Shown: in pieces, positions 11,207-27,091 of the stretch
How positions within the stretch are numbered: position 1 is the first letter of the stretch
How the letters are laid out: the number at the start of each line of letters is the position of its first letter
Origin: Hydrogenophaga sp.
Lineage (GTDB): Bacteria; Pseudomonadota; Gammaproteobacteria; Burkholderiales; Burkholderiaceae_C
DNA: 64,000 nucleotides
Direction of reading: 5' to 3'
Assembly: GCA_030682835.1 (NCBI GenBank)
Contig: JAUXNG010000074.1
Coordinates: forward strand, 1 to 64,000
Translations under genes and position numbers: made by a program
Notes under the pieces: generated by a model
What the model was told of the DNA's origin: nothing
Databases searched by the model: none
What the model saw: only the letters and a program-made list of their open reading frames with translations

Positions 11207-11263
11207 GGCGGGTTCCTGAGCGGTGCGGGTTCTGGCTGAAGACGTGAGGTGCTGGCGTGCGTG

Positions 11264-11301
11264 CCCCTCACCCCAGCCCTCTCCCCGGAGGGGCGAGGGA
11301 G
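11264..11301. repeat. GC-rich palindromic intergenic repeat (second family)
   Basis: Between the enoyl-CoA hydratase and acyl-CoA dehydrogenase genes. The core CCCTCTCCCCGGAGGGG, followed by CGAGGG, forms a near-perfect dyad. It resembles REP-like sequences with CCCTCACCCCAGCCC flanks seen in many Proteobacteria. It is not adjacent to a stop codon and differs from the stop-associated family. Confidence 0.55.
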
Positions 11302-11397
11302 CGAAGGCACAGCCCTTGCACGGAAGCCGTTTGGTTCGATGCGGGTGCGCTCAGTCGCGGTGGGCGGTCGGGCATGTGTGCCCCGGCGGTGTTCACC

Positions 11398-12369: not shown

Positions 12370-12852
12370 TCATTCCATGCTGATCTGATGGGCTTTCACC
12401 TTGCCCAGCAGCCGGTGCAGCGTGTCGAGCTCGCGCGGGTTGAGCCCTTCGAAGGCTTCCACGATCCAGCGCTCGTGCTGAAGCGCCATGGCGGCAAAAG
12501 CGTCGTGGCCGCGGGCGGTCAGCCGCACGCGAAAGGCGCGGCGGTCGCCCTCGACCTCGGTGCGCTCCACCAGGCCTTCGGCCACCAGCTGGTCGGTGAT
12601 GCCGGTCACGTTGCCCCCTGTGACCATGAGCCGGTGCGACAGCTCCTTCATCTTCAGCCCCTCGGGGTAGCGTTCGAGCTGGGCCATGAGGTCGAAGCGG
12701 GGCAGGGTGGTGTCGAACTGTTCGCGCAGGCCGATCCGCACGCGCTTCTCGATCAGCTGCGAACAGGTCAGCAGGCGCAGCCACAGGCGCAGTTCCTGGG
12801 CGTGCTCGCTGTGGGCGCGGGCTTCGAGGTCGAGCGGGGCGGCGGCGGTCAT
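12370..12852 (-). CDS. MarR-family transcriptional regulator
   Basis: 160 residues with the winged-helix DNA-binding region of MarR proteins: [20 protein letters not shown], then the recognition helix area [18 protein letters not shown] and the wing [18 protein letters not shown]. Its start overlaps the stop of the monooxygenase/reductase gene by 4 bases (ATGA), so the two are co-translated. MarR repressors of aromatic-acid operons commonly respond to the CoA-thioester or acid substrate, so this is the likely local regulator. Its operator would be expected upstream of 15395, where AT-richer sequence occurs. Confidence 0.9.
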
Positions 12853-15395
12853 TCGACGGGTGTGGGAAGGGGTTGGGGGGCAGCCGCCTGCAGGCTCTGC
12901 TGGCGGGCGATTTCACGGTAGAGCTGGTCGCGGCCGCTTTCGTAGGGGCGCGGCCATTCCACGGCACGGGTCTGCAGGCGGGCCGCTTCGTGCAGCGTCC
13001 AGGCCGGGTCGGCCAGGTGCGGGCGGGCCACGGCGCACAGGTCGGCGCGGCCGGCCCCGATGATGCTGTTGGCGTGGTCGGCTTCGCTGATGGCCCCCAC
13101 CGCCATGGTCAGGATGCCGGCTTCGTTGCGCACGCGGTCGGCAAACGGCGTCTGGTACATGCGGCCGTACACGGGTTTGGCTTCGCGGGTGGTCTGACCC
13201 GACGACACGTCGATCACGTCGCAGCCGGCCGCCTTGAACAGGCGGGCGATGGCCACGGCGTCGTCGGGCGTGTTGCCGCCGGGCGCCCAGTCGTGCGCGG
13301 AAATGCGCACGCTCATGGGCCGGTCGGCCGGCCAGGCCGCGCGCATGGCGGCGAACACCTCCAGCGGGTAGCGGCAGCGGTTCTCCAGCGAGCCGCCGTA
13401 TTCATCGGTGCGTTGGTTCGTCAGCGGGCAGATGAAGGCCGAGAGCAGGTAGCCGTGGGCGGCGTGCAGTTCCAGCCAGTCAAAGCTGGCGACTGCCGCG
13501 CGGCGCGTGCTGTCCACGAAGGCGGCGGTGAGCGTATCCATGTCGGCGCGGGTCATCGCGCGCGGGGTCTGGTTGTTCGGGCCGTACGACACGGCACTGG
13601 CCGAGAGCAGTGGCCAGTTGCCGGCCACCAGCGGCTCGTCGATCGCTTCCCAGCCCAGCTGCGTGGAACCCTTGGGGCCGCTGTGGCCGATCTGGATGCC
13701 GATCCTGGCGCTGCTGCTGGTGTGTGCGAAGCGCACGATGCGCTCGAACGCGGCCTGCTGTGCGTCGTTCCACAGGCCGGGGCAGCCGGGGGTGATGCGG
13801 CCTTCGGGCGTCGGGCTGGTCATCTCCACCATCACCAGCGCTGCGCCGCCCACGGCGCGCGCACCCAGGTGCATCAGGTGCCAGTCGCCCACCACACCGT
13901 CCTGCGCCTGGTATTGCGCCATGGGCGAGACGACGATGCGGTTCTTCAGCACCACCTCGCGCACCTTCAGTGGCAGCAGCATGGGCGGTGTGGGGTGTTT
14001 TCTGGGTGCGGCACCGCCCTTCACCTGGCTTTCCAGCCAGGCCTCGTAACCCTCCAGCCAGGCCGGGTCGCGCAGGCGCAGGTTCTCGTGGCTGATGCGC
14101 TGGCTGCGGGTGAGCAGCGAGTAGCTGAACTGCTCGATGTCCATGGCCGTGTAGCGGTCCACGTTCTCGAACCATTCGGTGGAGTTGCGCGCCGCGTTCT
14201 GTATCTTCAGCACCTCGACGCCGCGGCGTTCTTCATAGCCCTGCAGCACGCTCTTCAGGTCGCTGCCGGGCATGCGCTGGAACTCGTCGGCCAGGTCGAT
14301 GGCGTCTTCCAGCGCGAGCTTGGTGCCGCTGCCGAGGGAGAAGTGGGCGGTGTGGGCCGCGTCGCCCATGAGCACGATCGGGACGTGGCGGACGCGATCC
14401 GGCGCCGGGCCGCCCCAAGCCGGATCAGCCCCCTCGGGGGGCAGCGACCCGCGCAGCGGCGGAGCGTGGGGGTCAGGGACCGCAGCGAAGGGCCGCTCCC
14501 GAGCAAGGTCAGCCCCCTCGGGGGGCAGCGACCCGCGCAGCGGCGGAGCGTGGGGGCGTAACTCCTGCCAGTGCACCCAGGTCTTGCAGATGACACGCGG
14601 AAAGCGGATCCAGTTGGCCGAGCCCCGCAGGTGCTTGGCGTTGCTGATGAGCGCATGGCCGTCGAGGTATTTGGCGAACAGCTGTTCGCAGAAGGCAATG
14701 CCTTCTTCCTGGCTCATCTGTTCCATGCCGTGCGCCTGCCACACGGCCTCGGGTACTTCGACGATGAAGGTGGAGGTGTCGGCGTCGAACTTGTAGGCGT
14801 GGGACTGGAACCAGCCGTGCTCGGTCTTTTCGAACGCGAAGGTGAAGGCGTCGAAGGTCTTGCGGGTGCCGAGCCACACGAATCGGCACTTGCGCGTGTC
14901 GATGTCGGGCTGGAAGGTGGCCGCGTAGCGCGTGCGGATGCGGCTGTTCAGGCCGTCGCTGGCGATCACCAGATCGGCCTGGTACTGCTCGGCCAGAGCC
15001 TGGTCGTCGGTCACGTCGGTCTCGAACACCAGGTCCACACCCAGCGCCAGGCAGCGCTCCTGAAGGATGTTGAGCAGGCGCTTGCGCCCGATGCCGCAGA
15101 AGCCATGGCCACCCGAGCGCACGCGGCCACCCTTGTACAACACCTCGATGTCGTCCCAGTGGTTGAAGGCATCGCCGATGAGCTGGGCCGACTCCGGGTC
15201 GGCCGCCTTCAGGTTCTGCAGCGTCTGGTCGGAGAACACCACACCCCAGCCGAAGGTGTCGAAAGGGCGGTTGCGTTCGACCACGGTGACGGTGAGCGAG
15301 GGGTCGCGCCGCTTCATCAGCAGGGCGAAATAGAGTCCTGCCGGACCGCCGCCAATGCACAGGATGCGCCGCAGCGCCGAAGTGGGGGTGTTCAT
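12849..15395 (-). CDS. 2-aminobenzoyl-CoA monooxygenase/reductase-type fusion (salicylyl-CoA 5-hydroxylase/oxidoreductase family)
   Basis: An 848-residue fusion. The N-terminal half is a class A FAD monooxygenase: [20 protein letters not shown] for FAD binding, then [12 protein letters not shown]. The C-terminal half (from about residue 470) is an old-yellow-enzyme domain: [20 protein letters not shown], then [20 protein letters not shown]. This architecture is known from the 2-aminobenzoyl-CoA enzyme that hydroxylates and then reduces the ring of CoA-bound anthranilate, and from enzymes annotated as salicylyl-CoA 5-hydroxylase. Hydratase and dehydrogenase neighbours favour the aminobenzoyl reading. 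The start is ATG 15395; a TTG at 15401 is in frame. About 50 residues (roughly 278-330) consist of two copies of a repeat-derived peptide inserted just before the GDAAH motif, so the protein is longer than expected for the family and may be impaired. Confidence 0.85.
14425..14472 (-). repeat. In-gene repeat element, unit 2 of a tandem pair
   Basis: This 48-base segment is identical to 14509-14556, 84 bases (28 codons) away. Its core CCCCCTCGGGGGGCAGC is a GC-rich dyad resembling the intergenic elements of this window. On the coding strand it translates in frame as [15 protein letters not shown]. Confidence 0.9.
14509..14556 (-). repeat. In-gene repeat element, unit 1 of a tandem pair
   Basis: Exact 48-base match to 14425-14472. 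The 84-base spacing is divisible by three, so the reading frame survives. The intervening 36 bases encode an Arg/Pro/Ala-rich linker. The pair interrupts the FAD monooxygenase domain before its conserved GD motif. Confidence 0.9.
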
Positions 15396-15404
15396 GCCCA
15401 ATTA

Positions 15405-25065: not shown

Positions 25066-25144
25066 TTGACCCCCACGCTTGTCATTTCAGGTACGGCGCT
25101 TCCCCCCACGGGGGCTTGCACAACTTGGAGCGGTCCGGCGTTGT

Positions 25145-27091
25145 TCATGCTGCTGCCTTCACGGGTGCGAATGTCTTGGCGTCGCTCACCTTCAGCGTGG
25201 CGCTCACGCTGCCGGTGCGCCCGTCTTCGAACTTCACCTGGGTTTCGATGTATTGCTCCGACTTGCCGCCGTACAGGGCGTCGATCAGCACGTTGTACTT
25301 GTCGGCAATGAAGCCGCGGCGGACCTTGTTGGTGCGGGTGAGCTCGCCGTCGTCGGCGTCCAGCTCCTTGTGCAGCACCAGGAAGCGGCTGATCTGGCTG
25401 CCTGCCAGCAGCTCGTCACGGCTCAGGTCGGCGTTGACTTTTTCCACGCAGTCGCGGATCAGTTCGTACACCTCGGGTTTCTGCGCCAGGTCGGTGTAGC
25501 CCGCGTAAGGCAGGTTGCGCCGCTCGGCCCAGTTGCCCACGGCCTCCATGTCGATGTTGATCATGATGCAGACCTTCTCGCGCTGGTCGCCGTAGGCCAC
25601 TGCCTCCTTGATGTACGAGAAGAACTTGAGCTTGTTCTCCACGTACTTGGGCGCGAACATCGCATTGTCAAAGGTGCCGCCCTTGATGCGGCCCACGTCC
25701 TTCACGCGGTCGATGATCTTCAGGTGCCCCGATGCGTCGATGAAGCCGGCGTCGCTGGTGTGGTACCAGCCATCGGCCGTGAGCACCTCGGCCGTGGCAG
25801 CCGGGTTCTTGTAGTACTCCTTCAGCAGGCCCGGCGACTTCACGAGAATCTCGCCGGTCTCGCTCAGCTTGATCTCCACGCCTTCGCAAGGCACGCCCAC
25901 CGTATCGGCACGCGCTTCGTGGTCGGGCTGCAGGCACACGAACACCGCGGTCTCGGTGGAGCCATAGAGCTGCTTCAGGTTGATGCCGATCGAGCGGTAG
26001 AAGCTGAACAGGTCGGGGCCGATGGCCTCGCCAGCCGTGTAGGCCACGCGCACCCGGCTCATGCCCAGGCTGTTGCGCAGCGGGCCGTAGACGAACAGGT
26101 TGCCCAGCGCGTACATCACCGAGTCCATCAGGCCCACGGGCTTGCCGTCGAGCTTGTCCGGGCCGATGCGGCGCGCCACGTCCATGAAGGTGTGGAACAT
26201 CTTGCGCTTGAGGGCGCCCGCGTCTTCCATGCGGATCATCACCGTGGTGAGCAGGCCTTCGAACACGCGGGGTGGTGCGAAGTAGTAGGTGGGCCCGACT
26301 TCCTTCAGGTCGATGGTGACCGTGGCGCCCGATTCGGGGCAGTTCACCACGTAGCCGGCCACCAGCCACTGGGCGTAGCTGAAGATGTTCTGGCCGATCC
26401 AGGCGGGCGGCAGGTAGGCCAGCACCTCGTCCTTGTCGGTCAGCTTGTCGAAGCGCGTGCCCACGGCGGCTCGGTCGATCAGCGTGTTGTGGGTGTGCAC
26501 CACACCCTTGGGGTTGCCGGTGGTGCCCGAGGTGAAGAACATGGCGGCCACGTCGTCGGGCCTGGCCATGTCCACCTGCTCGCGGAACACCTGCGGGTGA
26601 ATCTGTGCAAACGCCTTGCCCGAGGCGATCAGCTCTTCCAGCGCGCCCAGACCGGGCTGGTCGTAGTTGCGCAGGCCGCGCGGGTCGTCGTAGTAGATGT
26701 GCGAGAGCTGCGGGCAGCGGTCGCGGATCTCCAGCATCTTGTCGACCTGTTCCTGGTCTTCCACCACCGCGAAACGCACGTCGGCGTTGTTGATGGGGAA
26801 CACGCATTCGGCACCCACGGCGTCCTGGTACAGCGGCACGGGAATGGCGCCCAGCGACTGCGCGGCCAGCATGGTGGCGTACAGGCGGGGGCGGTTGGCC
26901 CCGATCACGATCATGTGTTCATCGCGCTGCAGGCCGGCCTGGTGCAGGCCGCAGGCAATGGCTTCCACCAGTTGGGCCATGCCGGCCCAGGTGGTGGTCT
27001 GCCAGATGCCGTATTCCTTCTCGCGCATCGCGGGGGCGTCGGGGCGCTTCGCCGCGTGTTCCAGCAACAGCCGGGGAAAAGTGTCTTGCAT
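25145..27091 (-). CDS. AMP-dependent long-chain acyl-CoA synthetase-type ligase
   Basis: An ANL enzyme of 648 residues and the first gene of the transporter operon. The ATG at 27091 (MQDTFPRLLLEHAAKRPDAP) has a CAGGAG ribosome site. It has a canonical P-loop AAMFFTSGTTGNPKGVVHTH, the A5 motif LYGSTETAVFVCL, the hinge region DASGHLKIIDRVKDVGRIKG and the terminal lysine motif GELTRTNKVRRGFIADKYNV. Size and layout match long-chain fatty-acyl-CoA synthetases, but related proteins in LIV operons may activate aromatic or branched acids. Together with the importer it suggests uptake coupled to CoA activation. Confidence 0.88.
   Translation of the reverse strand: MQDTFPRLLLEHAAKRPDAPAMREKEYGIWQTTTWAGMAQLVEAIACGLHQAGLQRDEHMIVIGANRPRLYATMLAAQSLGAIPVPLYQDAVGAECVFPINNADVRFAVVEDQEQVDKMLEIRDRCPQLSHIYYDDPRGLRNYDQPGLGALEELIASGKAFAQIHPQVFREQVDMARPDDVAAMFFTSGTTGNPKGVVHTHNTLIDRAAVGTRFDKLTDKDEVLAYLPPAWIGQNIFSYAQWLVAGYVVNCPESGATVTIDLKEVGPTYYFAPPRVFEGLLTTVMIRMEDAGALKRKMFHTFMDVARRIGPDKLDGKPVGLMDSVMYALGNLFVYGPLRNSLGMSRVRVAYTAGEAIGPDLFSFYRSIGINLKQLYGSTETAVFVCLQPDHEARADTVGVPCEGVEIKLSETGEILVKSPGLLKEYYKNPAATAEVLTADGWYHTSDAGFIDASGHLKIIDRVKDVGRIKGGTFDNAMFAPKYVENKLKFFSYIKEAVAYGDQREKVCIMINIDMEAVGNWAERRNLPYAGYTDLAQKPEVYELIRDCVEKVNADLSRDELLAGSQISRFLVLHKELDADDGELTRTNKVRRGFIADKYNVLIDALYGGKSEQYIETQVKFEDGRTGSVSATLKVSDAKTFAPVKAAA

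Follow-up and report, generated by a model that had tools for sequence, protein, structure and literature searches.

A two-hairpin, REP-like repeat in frame at two sites of a putative salicylyl-CoA 5-hydroxylase/oxidoreductase gene in Hydrogenophaga

The gene and its insert

The window analysed here is a stretch of 64,000 nucleotides, contig C52 of a 3.6-Mb Hydrogenophaga MAG that is 87% complete and lies in 104 contigs. Its minus strand carries a gene for a two-domain enzyme, in which an FAD monooxygenase half is joined to an old-yellow-enzyme-type oxidoreductase half. The open reading frame has 850 codons from a TTG, or 848 from an ATG at 15395, and the closest named relatives of the gene are Hydrogenophaga records. 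The predicted name, salicylyl-CoA 5-hydroxylase/oxidoreductase, comes from the family model NF006101, which matched at 1343.2 bits against an equivalog cut-off of 1078, in two stretches covering both halves. The better-scoring stretch starts at residue 336, immediately past the insert. The features are listed below; both repeat units were among the 29 sequences used to build the covariance model R1 that scores them.

12849..15401, minus strand: bifunctional salicylyl-CoA 5-hydroxylase/oxidoreductase gene, putative (open reading frame; NF006101, PF00724 and PF01494)
13986..14036, minus strand: interdomain linker (residues about 454-470), empty in this gene; 11 of the 50 genus loci match the REP there
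14397..14558, minus strand: REP-derived insert of 162 nt, or 54 residues (about 280-333), in the turn before GDAAH (from anchor spacing; both end points approximate, judged from sequence)
14389..14474, minus strand: REP unit 1 (L123), complete, two hairpins, GATCCGG-stem type (R1: 87.2 bits, E 7.8e-20)
14425..14472, minus strand: 48-nt block, copy 1 (repeat search)
14473..14558, minus strand: REP unit 2 (L124), same first half, degenerate second hairpin (R1: 64.5 bits, E 7.9e-17, in an unfiltered search of 168 bases; the default whole-window search did not list this abutting second unit)
14509..14556, minus strand: 48-nt block, copy 2, identical to copy 1 (repeat search)
25068..25154, plus strand: further copy of the element family, between genes by eye (R1: 59.7 bits, E 4.5e-13)

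The initial annotation had described two identical 48-base units, 84 bases apart and in frame, and this description was borne out: the start-to-start distance of the blocks is 84 nt, and both lie within the minus-strand reading frame. Extended to 59 nt (14414-14472 and 14498-14556), the copies share 93% identity. The FPRVI and LMGDAAH anchors are 216 nt apart in the window gene and 54 nt apart in the common allele, a net gain of 162 nt or 54 residues. The insertion before GDAAH therefore stands as first proposed, while its size is slightly above the "about 50" residues given at the time. A simple tandem duplication was rejected as the full account because the second hairpins of the two head-to-tail units differ: one has a GATCCGG..CCGGATC stem, the other a degenerate GACCTTGC-type stem. 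Among the loci read, a double unit in this loop was found in this MAG alone. The insert is not a product of chance, given 29 core copies in the MAG against 0 in the reversed control, together with the E values of the covariance model.

The repeat element

The 48-nt block is the conserved half of a REP-like element of about 80 nt with two hairpins. In the aligned MAG copies the first half is conserved (GCCCCCACGC...GAGGGGGC), and the second hairpin has an almost fixed loop and a stem that varies with compensation. In this second hairpin, 8 of the 13 pairs were changed on both sides, 91.3% of the cells pair, and the covariation score was reached by none of 500 shuffles. The first hairpin hardly varies and so provides no covariation support. 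Thus the compensatory changes typical of REP hairpins are present, through hairpin 2, and so is the dispersal typical of REPs, with many and mainly intergenic copies. Five of the six frames of the element are free of stops, and the open ones encode many Pro, Gly, Ala and charged residues.

A 143-nt stretch had matches at 41 places in the MAG, and a 19-nt core (up to 2 mismatches) occurred in 29 copies, with 0 in the reversed control; these counts are lower bounds, because the MAG is 87% complete. A 20-nt core, again with up to 2 mismatches, was present in all 67 genus genomes. In a sample of 299 genomes of the family it occurred in 241, which represent 123 of 141 genera; the reversed controls scored 0 in the rows shown. 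Head-to-tail arrays with a period of about 82-86 nt are listed for genome G004. An Rfam search of 14200-14800 returned no family at E <= 0.1.

Membership of the GTAG REP superfamily was considered and rejected: of 69 copies, a single one had GTAG near its 5' end and none had it near the 3' end. CGTC occurred within the 24-nt 3' stretch of 14 of the 69 copies and is not universal, and by eye the hairpins depart from the stem of 8-9 bp and the loop of 4-5 that mark the CGTC superfamily. We also rejected the Y1 transposases of the MAG as partners of the element, since the flanks retrieved for its two Y1_Tnp genes (L148, L149) contained 0 element matches at E <= 1 and thus no sign of a RAYT link; a RAYT may possibly be hidden in the missing part of this incomplete MAG. 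ATGA preceded 9 of the 55 copies (of 69) whose edge could be set, and no target tetranucleotide was concluded from this count.

Placement of the copies in genomes

Copies were classed by a codon-usage score, with the window as training set and not by annotation: 19 of the 29 MAG copies scored as intergenic and 10 lay in an open coding frame, at 8 sites in 8 genes. The search was for frames open across the element, so that an out-of-frame disruption of a gene would score as intergenic. This distribution supports the earlier suggestion that a repeat of intergenic type had been turned into a protein segment. Fifteen of the 19 intergenic copies begin -4 to 10 nt from a gene edge on the side of the first hairpin. 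Within L119-L147, 14 of the 19 begin at the stop end of a co-directional gene, with the first hairpin beside the stop.

A second sample, scored in the same way, covered 25 of the 27 copies of G005 and 15 of the 21 copies of G003. Of these 40 copies (L230-L269), 8 span a called gene, 5 in its interior and 3 at one end, and 29 of the 32 remaining copies begin -2 to 11 nt from the stop end of a co-directional neighbour. Two internal copies, L235 in G005 and L261 in G003, occupy the same place of one protein in two species; judging from its motifs, we take this protein to be AroA-like.

Besides the salicylyl-CoA enzyme, seven further MAG genes hold in-frame copies:

L120: formyltransferase/enoyl-CoA-hydratase fusion (family match)
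L121: XdhA (family match)
L127: Mpl (family match, empty homologues)
L134: UvrA (family match, empty homologues)
L139: acetoacetyl-CoA synthetase (family match)
L141: no family match; presumably a NorD-like gene
L143/L144: biotin-carboxylase subunit, two units (family match)

In-frame copies accompanied by empty homologues, the pattern of RPE-like insertions, were thus found in the salicylyl-CoA enzyme, UvrA and Mpl, and the other MAG genes were judged by family match only. In the 30 Mpl and 30 UvrA loci, which are the best-scoring of 66 and 61 genomes with a match and favour insert-bearing alleles because the query contains the insert, the element was found in one Mpl loop in 10 loci (11 matches, in either orientation) and in UvrA in 5. 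Every one of these inserts is read in a frame that stays open as far as the conserved motifs on either side, and the empty homologues appear as alignments that break at the insert.

Other recurring segments were seen in these proteins. The Mpl loop of L203, L205, L207, L209, L210 and others carries a different one, RSAQVKEEPAQRAGDTEQSAQPPR, which the element model does not match. In L139 and L143, AELVEAL...LRQAQPER stands in frame beside the element, in acetoacetyl-CoA synthetase and biotin carboxylase respectively, and in the XdhA of L121 PSPLPSPASGRG...LPLGEGWGEG does so; we assume that these two segments belong to other translated repeat families. The peptides at ORF starts at 11249-11330 of the window likewise look to us like another translated intergenic repeat.

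Filled and empty alleles at the loop

We compared 50 enzyme loci, taken from 58 genus genomes with a match; G010, G030, G032, G038, G047, G057, G058, G063 and G064 (61-68% identity) were left out of the set. The FPRVI-LMGDAAH spacing was 54 nt in 35 of the 50 loci, 45 nt in 2 and unreadable in 2. The remaining 11 have a loop insert, at 87, 132 (twice), 135 (four times), 138 (twice) and 162 nt and the 216 nt of the window, all of them multiples of 3. Ten genus loci besides the window therefore have a loop insert or a remnant of one, the remnant being the 87 nt of L159. The row nearest to the window gene, the partial gene L164 (92% over 1101 columns), is an empty allele. The homologue alignment proposed at the outset thus shows the segment to be absent from most homologues.

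Nor do homologues across genera carry the same insertion: outside the genus the spacing was 42-66 nt in 66 of 69 loci, longer in two (L052 and L100) and not read in one. In L052, a Polaromonas MAG, the element sits reversed in the same loop (E 3.5e-8), which requires a separate insertion; L100 gave no element match at E <= 0.1. Those Hydrogenophaga loop inserts that keep the second hairpin have a stem of the GATCCGG or GGTCCGG type, except for unit 2 of the window.

The interdomain linker as a second site

The linker between the enzyme halves is empty in the window gene. Of the 50 genus loci, 11 matched the element there, 5 with a forward copy (L150, L152, L154, L157, L162) and 6 with a reversed one (L151, L153, L155, L156, L160, L161). 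Ten of these 11 copies are in frame with both enzyme halves, the exception being L157. The copy of L162 (L046) comes from the named strain record of H. taeniospiralis NBRC 102512, so the family is not confined to MAGs. Polaromonas L065, L090 and L078 also have a linker element in frame, and in L071 the linker match is weak (E 0.002). In total, the 50 enzyme loci gave 33 model matches, 22 in the gene and 11 outside; two of the 22 fall in the chimeric L161, where the 5' part of the gene is missing, and one is the out-of-frame copy of L157.

In L157 (G051:C32:1500-5029) the element at 1895-1980 directly follows SHENLR, with a loss of about a dozen codons, and the enzyme halves are read in different frames. 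Either the gene is broken or split here, or the assembly is at fault; the locus speaks against the harmlessness of every copy. In L161 (G056:C51:10500-14200) a short-chain dehydrogenase gene is followed, at about 1300-1500, by two repeat units and then by the 3' part of the enzyme, which begins inside the repeat. A whole copy of the gene, L160, is present in the same MAG, and L161 reflects either recombination between repeats or misassembly. The linker of L159 contains an N run and is read out of frame across it.

Insertion history

On a gene tree of 53 rows, built without the loop and linker columns, the state of the loop changes at least 8 times. This tree includes partial and chimeric rows and one long branch (L157), which were removed stepwise: at least 7 changes were left without the long branch and with remnant and chimera uncounted, and at least 6 with full-length rows only. 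The linker state changes at least 6 times. The tree is unrooted, so these counts do not separate gain from loss. Forcing the carriers into one clade was rejected (p-AU 1.6e-32 on the 53 rows, and 2.8e-75).

The inserts differ far less than the genes that carry them. The insert of the window gene differs from that of L163 at 0 of 72 positions (gene pS 0.31) and from that of L160 at 1 of 72 (gene pS 0.37), a comparison that assumes a neutral insert and whose result gene conversion could also yield. Either such inserts in distant genes arose after their host genes had split, or they have been homogenised. The reversed copies require separate insertions.

Direct observation covers the repeat family with its covarying hairpin, the position of the insert in frame, the empty alleles and the copies at the loop, at the linker and in other genes. 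As their explanation we hold it to be very probable that REP-type elements have inserted recurrently, were kept mainly at permissive loops and linkers and are roughly neutral there.

Homologous recombination among Hydrogenophaga species, spreading a short insert-bearing segment, is compatible with recurrent insertion, and as an explanation of the pattern we regard it as possible, if rather unlikely. It would account for near-identical inserts in genes with about 31-38% synonymous difference. Moreover, L010 and L160 have junction letters in common while their genes are otherwise distant, and part of the spread likely went through recombination in view of these junctions. Nevertheless, L014, L016, L160 and the window gene (WIN) fall in their own well-supported clades with empty genes when the loop is excluded, so that any exchanged tract must be short, and recombination leaves the reversed copies and the copies in other genes unexplained.

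A single ancient loop insertion in the ancestor of the genus, followed by many losses, with copies homogenised by gene conversion from intergenic repeats, we consider improbable. The stem type common to the Hydrogenophaga loop inserts with a second hairpin (unit 2 of the window apart) and the shared junction letters of L010 and L160 are in keeping with it, and the change counts on the unrooted tree fit gain as well as loss. But this history requires repeated loss back to the exact 54-nt allele seen in 35 of the 50 loci, and L159, at 87 nt, is the single remnant. The two orientations at the linker and the reversed Polaromonas copy in the loop of L052 demand separate events in any case.

Effect on the protein

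With the loop excluded, dN/dS was 0.10-0.20 in four pairs with the window gene and 0.05-0.20 in 12 of 13 pairs; the exception was L160 against L161 of the same MAG (0.49 at dS 0.045). The window protein keeps 299 of the 302 columns that are invariant in the other 63 aligned proteins. In an AlphaFold2 model of moderate quality (shallow alignment of 64 rows, mean pLDDT 76.5, pTM 0.77), residues 282-332 have a pLDDT below 50 and lie between strands 274-279 and 336-342, adjoining GDAAH at 344-348. The two halves had fold matches to old yellow enzymes and VioD. No solved structure of the whole enzyme was found among the best 60 of 148 sequence matches, which cover single halves, nor among the best 50 fold matches.

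In the model, then, the element lengthens the turn between two strands into a loop predicted to be disordered, with the flanking strands intact; this is the outcome of the structure prediction that the initial annotation had called for. Of the two consequences then envisaged, a tolerated surface loop is favoured over damage to the enzyme by the lengths in multiples of 3, the low dN/dS, the retained invariant columns and the modelled disorder. Judged from sequence and model, the window gene is probably functional and its insert roughly neutral, and there is little support for damage.

It is accordingly very unlikely that the insert damages the enzyme and that the gene is a young pseudogene. One would point here to the 54 residues, modelled as disordered, close to GDAAH, and to the related L157, whose frame is broken at its linker element. 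The frame of the window gene is open, however, nearly all invariant columns are retained, and the loop is a multiple of 3 in ten other loci too; the dN/dS of 0.10-0.20 in the four window pairs also argues for function, with the qualification that a very recent loss would escape such measures. An artefact of MAG assembly or binning is highly improbable: the source MAG is incomplete (87%, 104 contigs), repeats are prone to misassembly and L161 of G056 is chimeric at such a repeat, yet the same site is filled in other genomes, including a single 5.4-Mb contig (G048/L012), and the junctions with coding sequence lie well within the window contig.

Discussion

Under recurrent insertion, the history of the window gene may be pictured as follows. 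Elements would reach genes again and again, either through transposition or through gene conversion by other copies. Most insertions that disrupt the reading frame or the fold would disappear; the survivors would have a length divisible by 3, be read in one of the frames without a stop and lie in a surface turn or a linker. At the present locus, two head-to-tail units of the genome-wide two-hairpin element would have entered the gene, the window allele carrying the second unit in addition. The resulting Pro/Gly/Ala/Arg-rich peptide would form a disordered surface loop and leave the FAD and old-yellow-enzyme domains intact.

Palindromic repeats in frame are already known; the novelty lies in this family of elements and in the fact that two sites of one enzyme have been used repeatedly. 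According to the main text of PMC3733652, the RPEs of Rickettsia are short palindromic repeats that occur in frame in many probably functional proteins, and the present element resembles them in this respect. It differs from them in belonging to another lineage and in its very GC-rich sequence with two hairpins. The same text (Di Nocera et al. 2013, PMC3733652) describes GTAG- and CGTC-tagged REPs as mostly intergenic and often beside the 3' ends of ORFs, some of them lying within ORFs, including uvrA, and adding 20-82 residues. Its authors propose flexible linkers or loops with a possibly neutral effect, and report REPs at about the same recB site in two Xanthomonas species (PMC3733652). Our element has these traits in common with them: copies are mostly intergenic and near the stop ends of genes, and some lie in ORFs, UvrA among them. 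Our element is longer, however, and its copies show the GTAG tag in 1 of 69 cases and CGTC in 14 of 69. The main text of PMC3733652 makes no mention of Acidovorax, Delftia, Variovorax, Polaromonas, Comamonas, Leptothrix or Rhodoferax.

With the REPs and BIMEs that are moved by RAYTs, the element has in common covarying hairpins, head-to-tail arrays and many intergenic copies. It differs from them in that no copy was found beside the two Y1_Tnp genes of the MAG. A literature search of titles and abstract openings, with most subscription journals outside its range, returned nothing on this repeat in Hydrogenophaga or Comamonadaceae.

The permissive sites that have been reused are the loop and the interdomain linker of the enzyme, a loop in Mpl and one in UvrA, and possibly AroA. 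What the present analysis adds is a comparative series for one enzyme, with two sites reused in both orientations and in two genera. Its alleles are empty, filled, double or decayed and in one case broken in frame, and Mpl and UvrA offer parallel series; the neutrality of the inserts, and the sites that accept foreign DNA, thereby become testable by ordinary enzymology. It also carries a warning, in that annotation and assembly can go wrong at repeats of this family and that the repeats can be taken for domains. Finally, we put forward as a speculation of low probability that the element is more than tolerated and acts as a lasting source of protein loops in Comamonadaceae, and that some of the linkers supplied may tune domain coupling and be retained for that. 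If this were true, the element would furnish ready-made disordered linkers at permissive protein sites.
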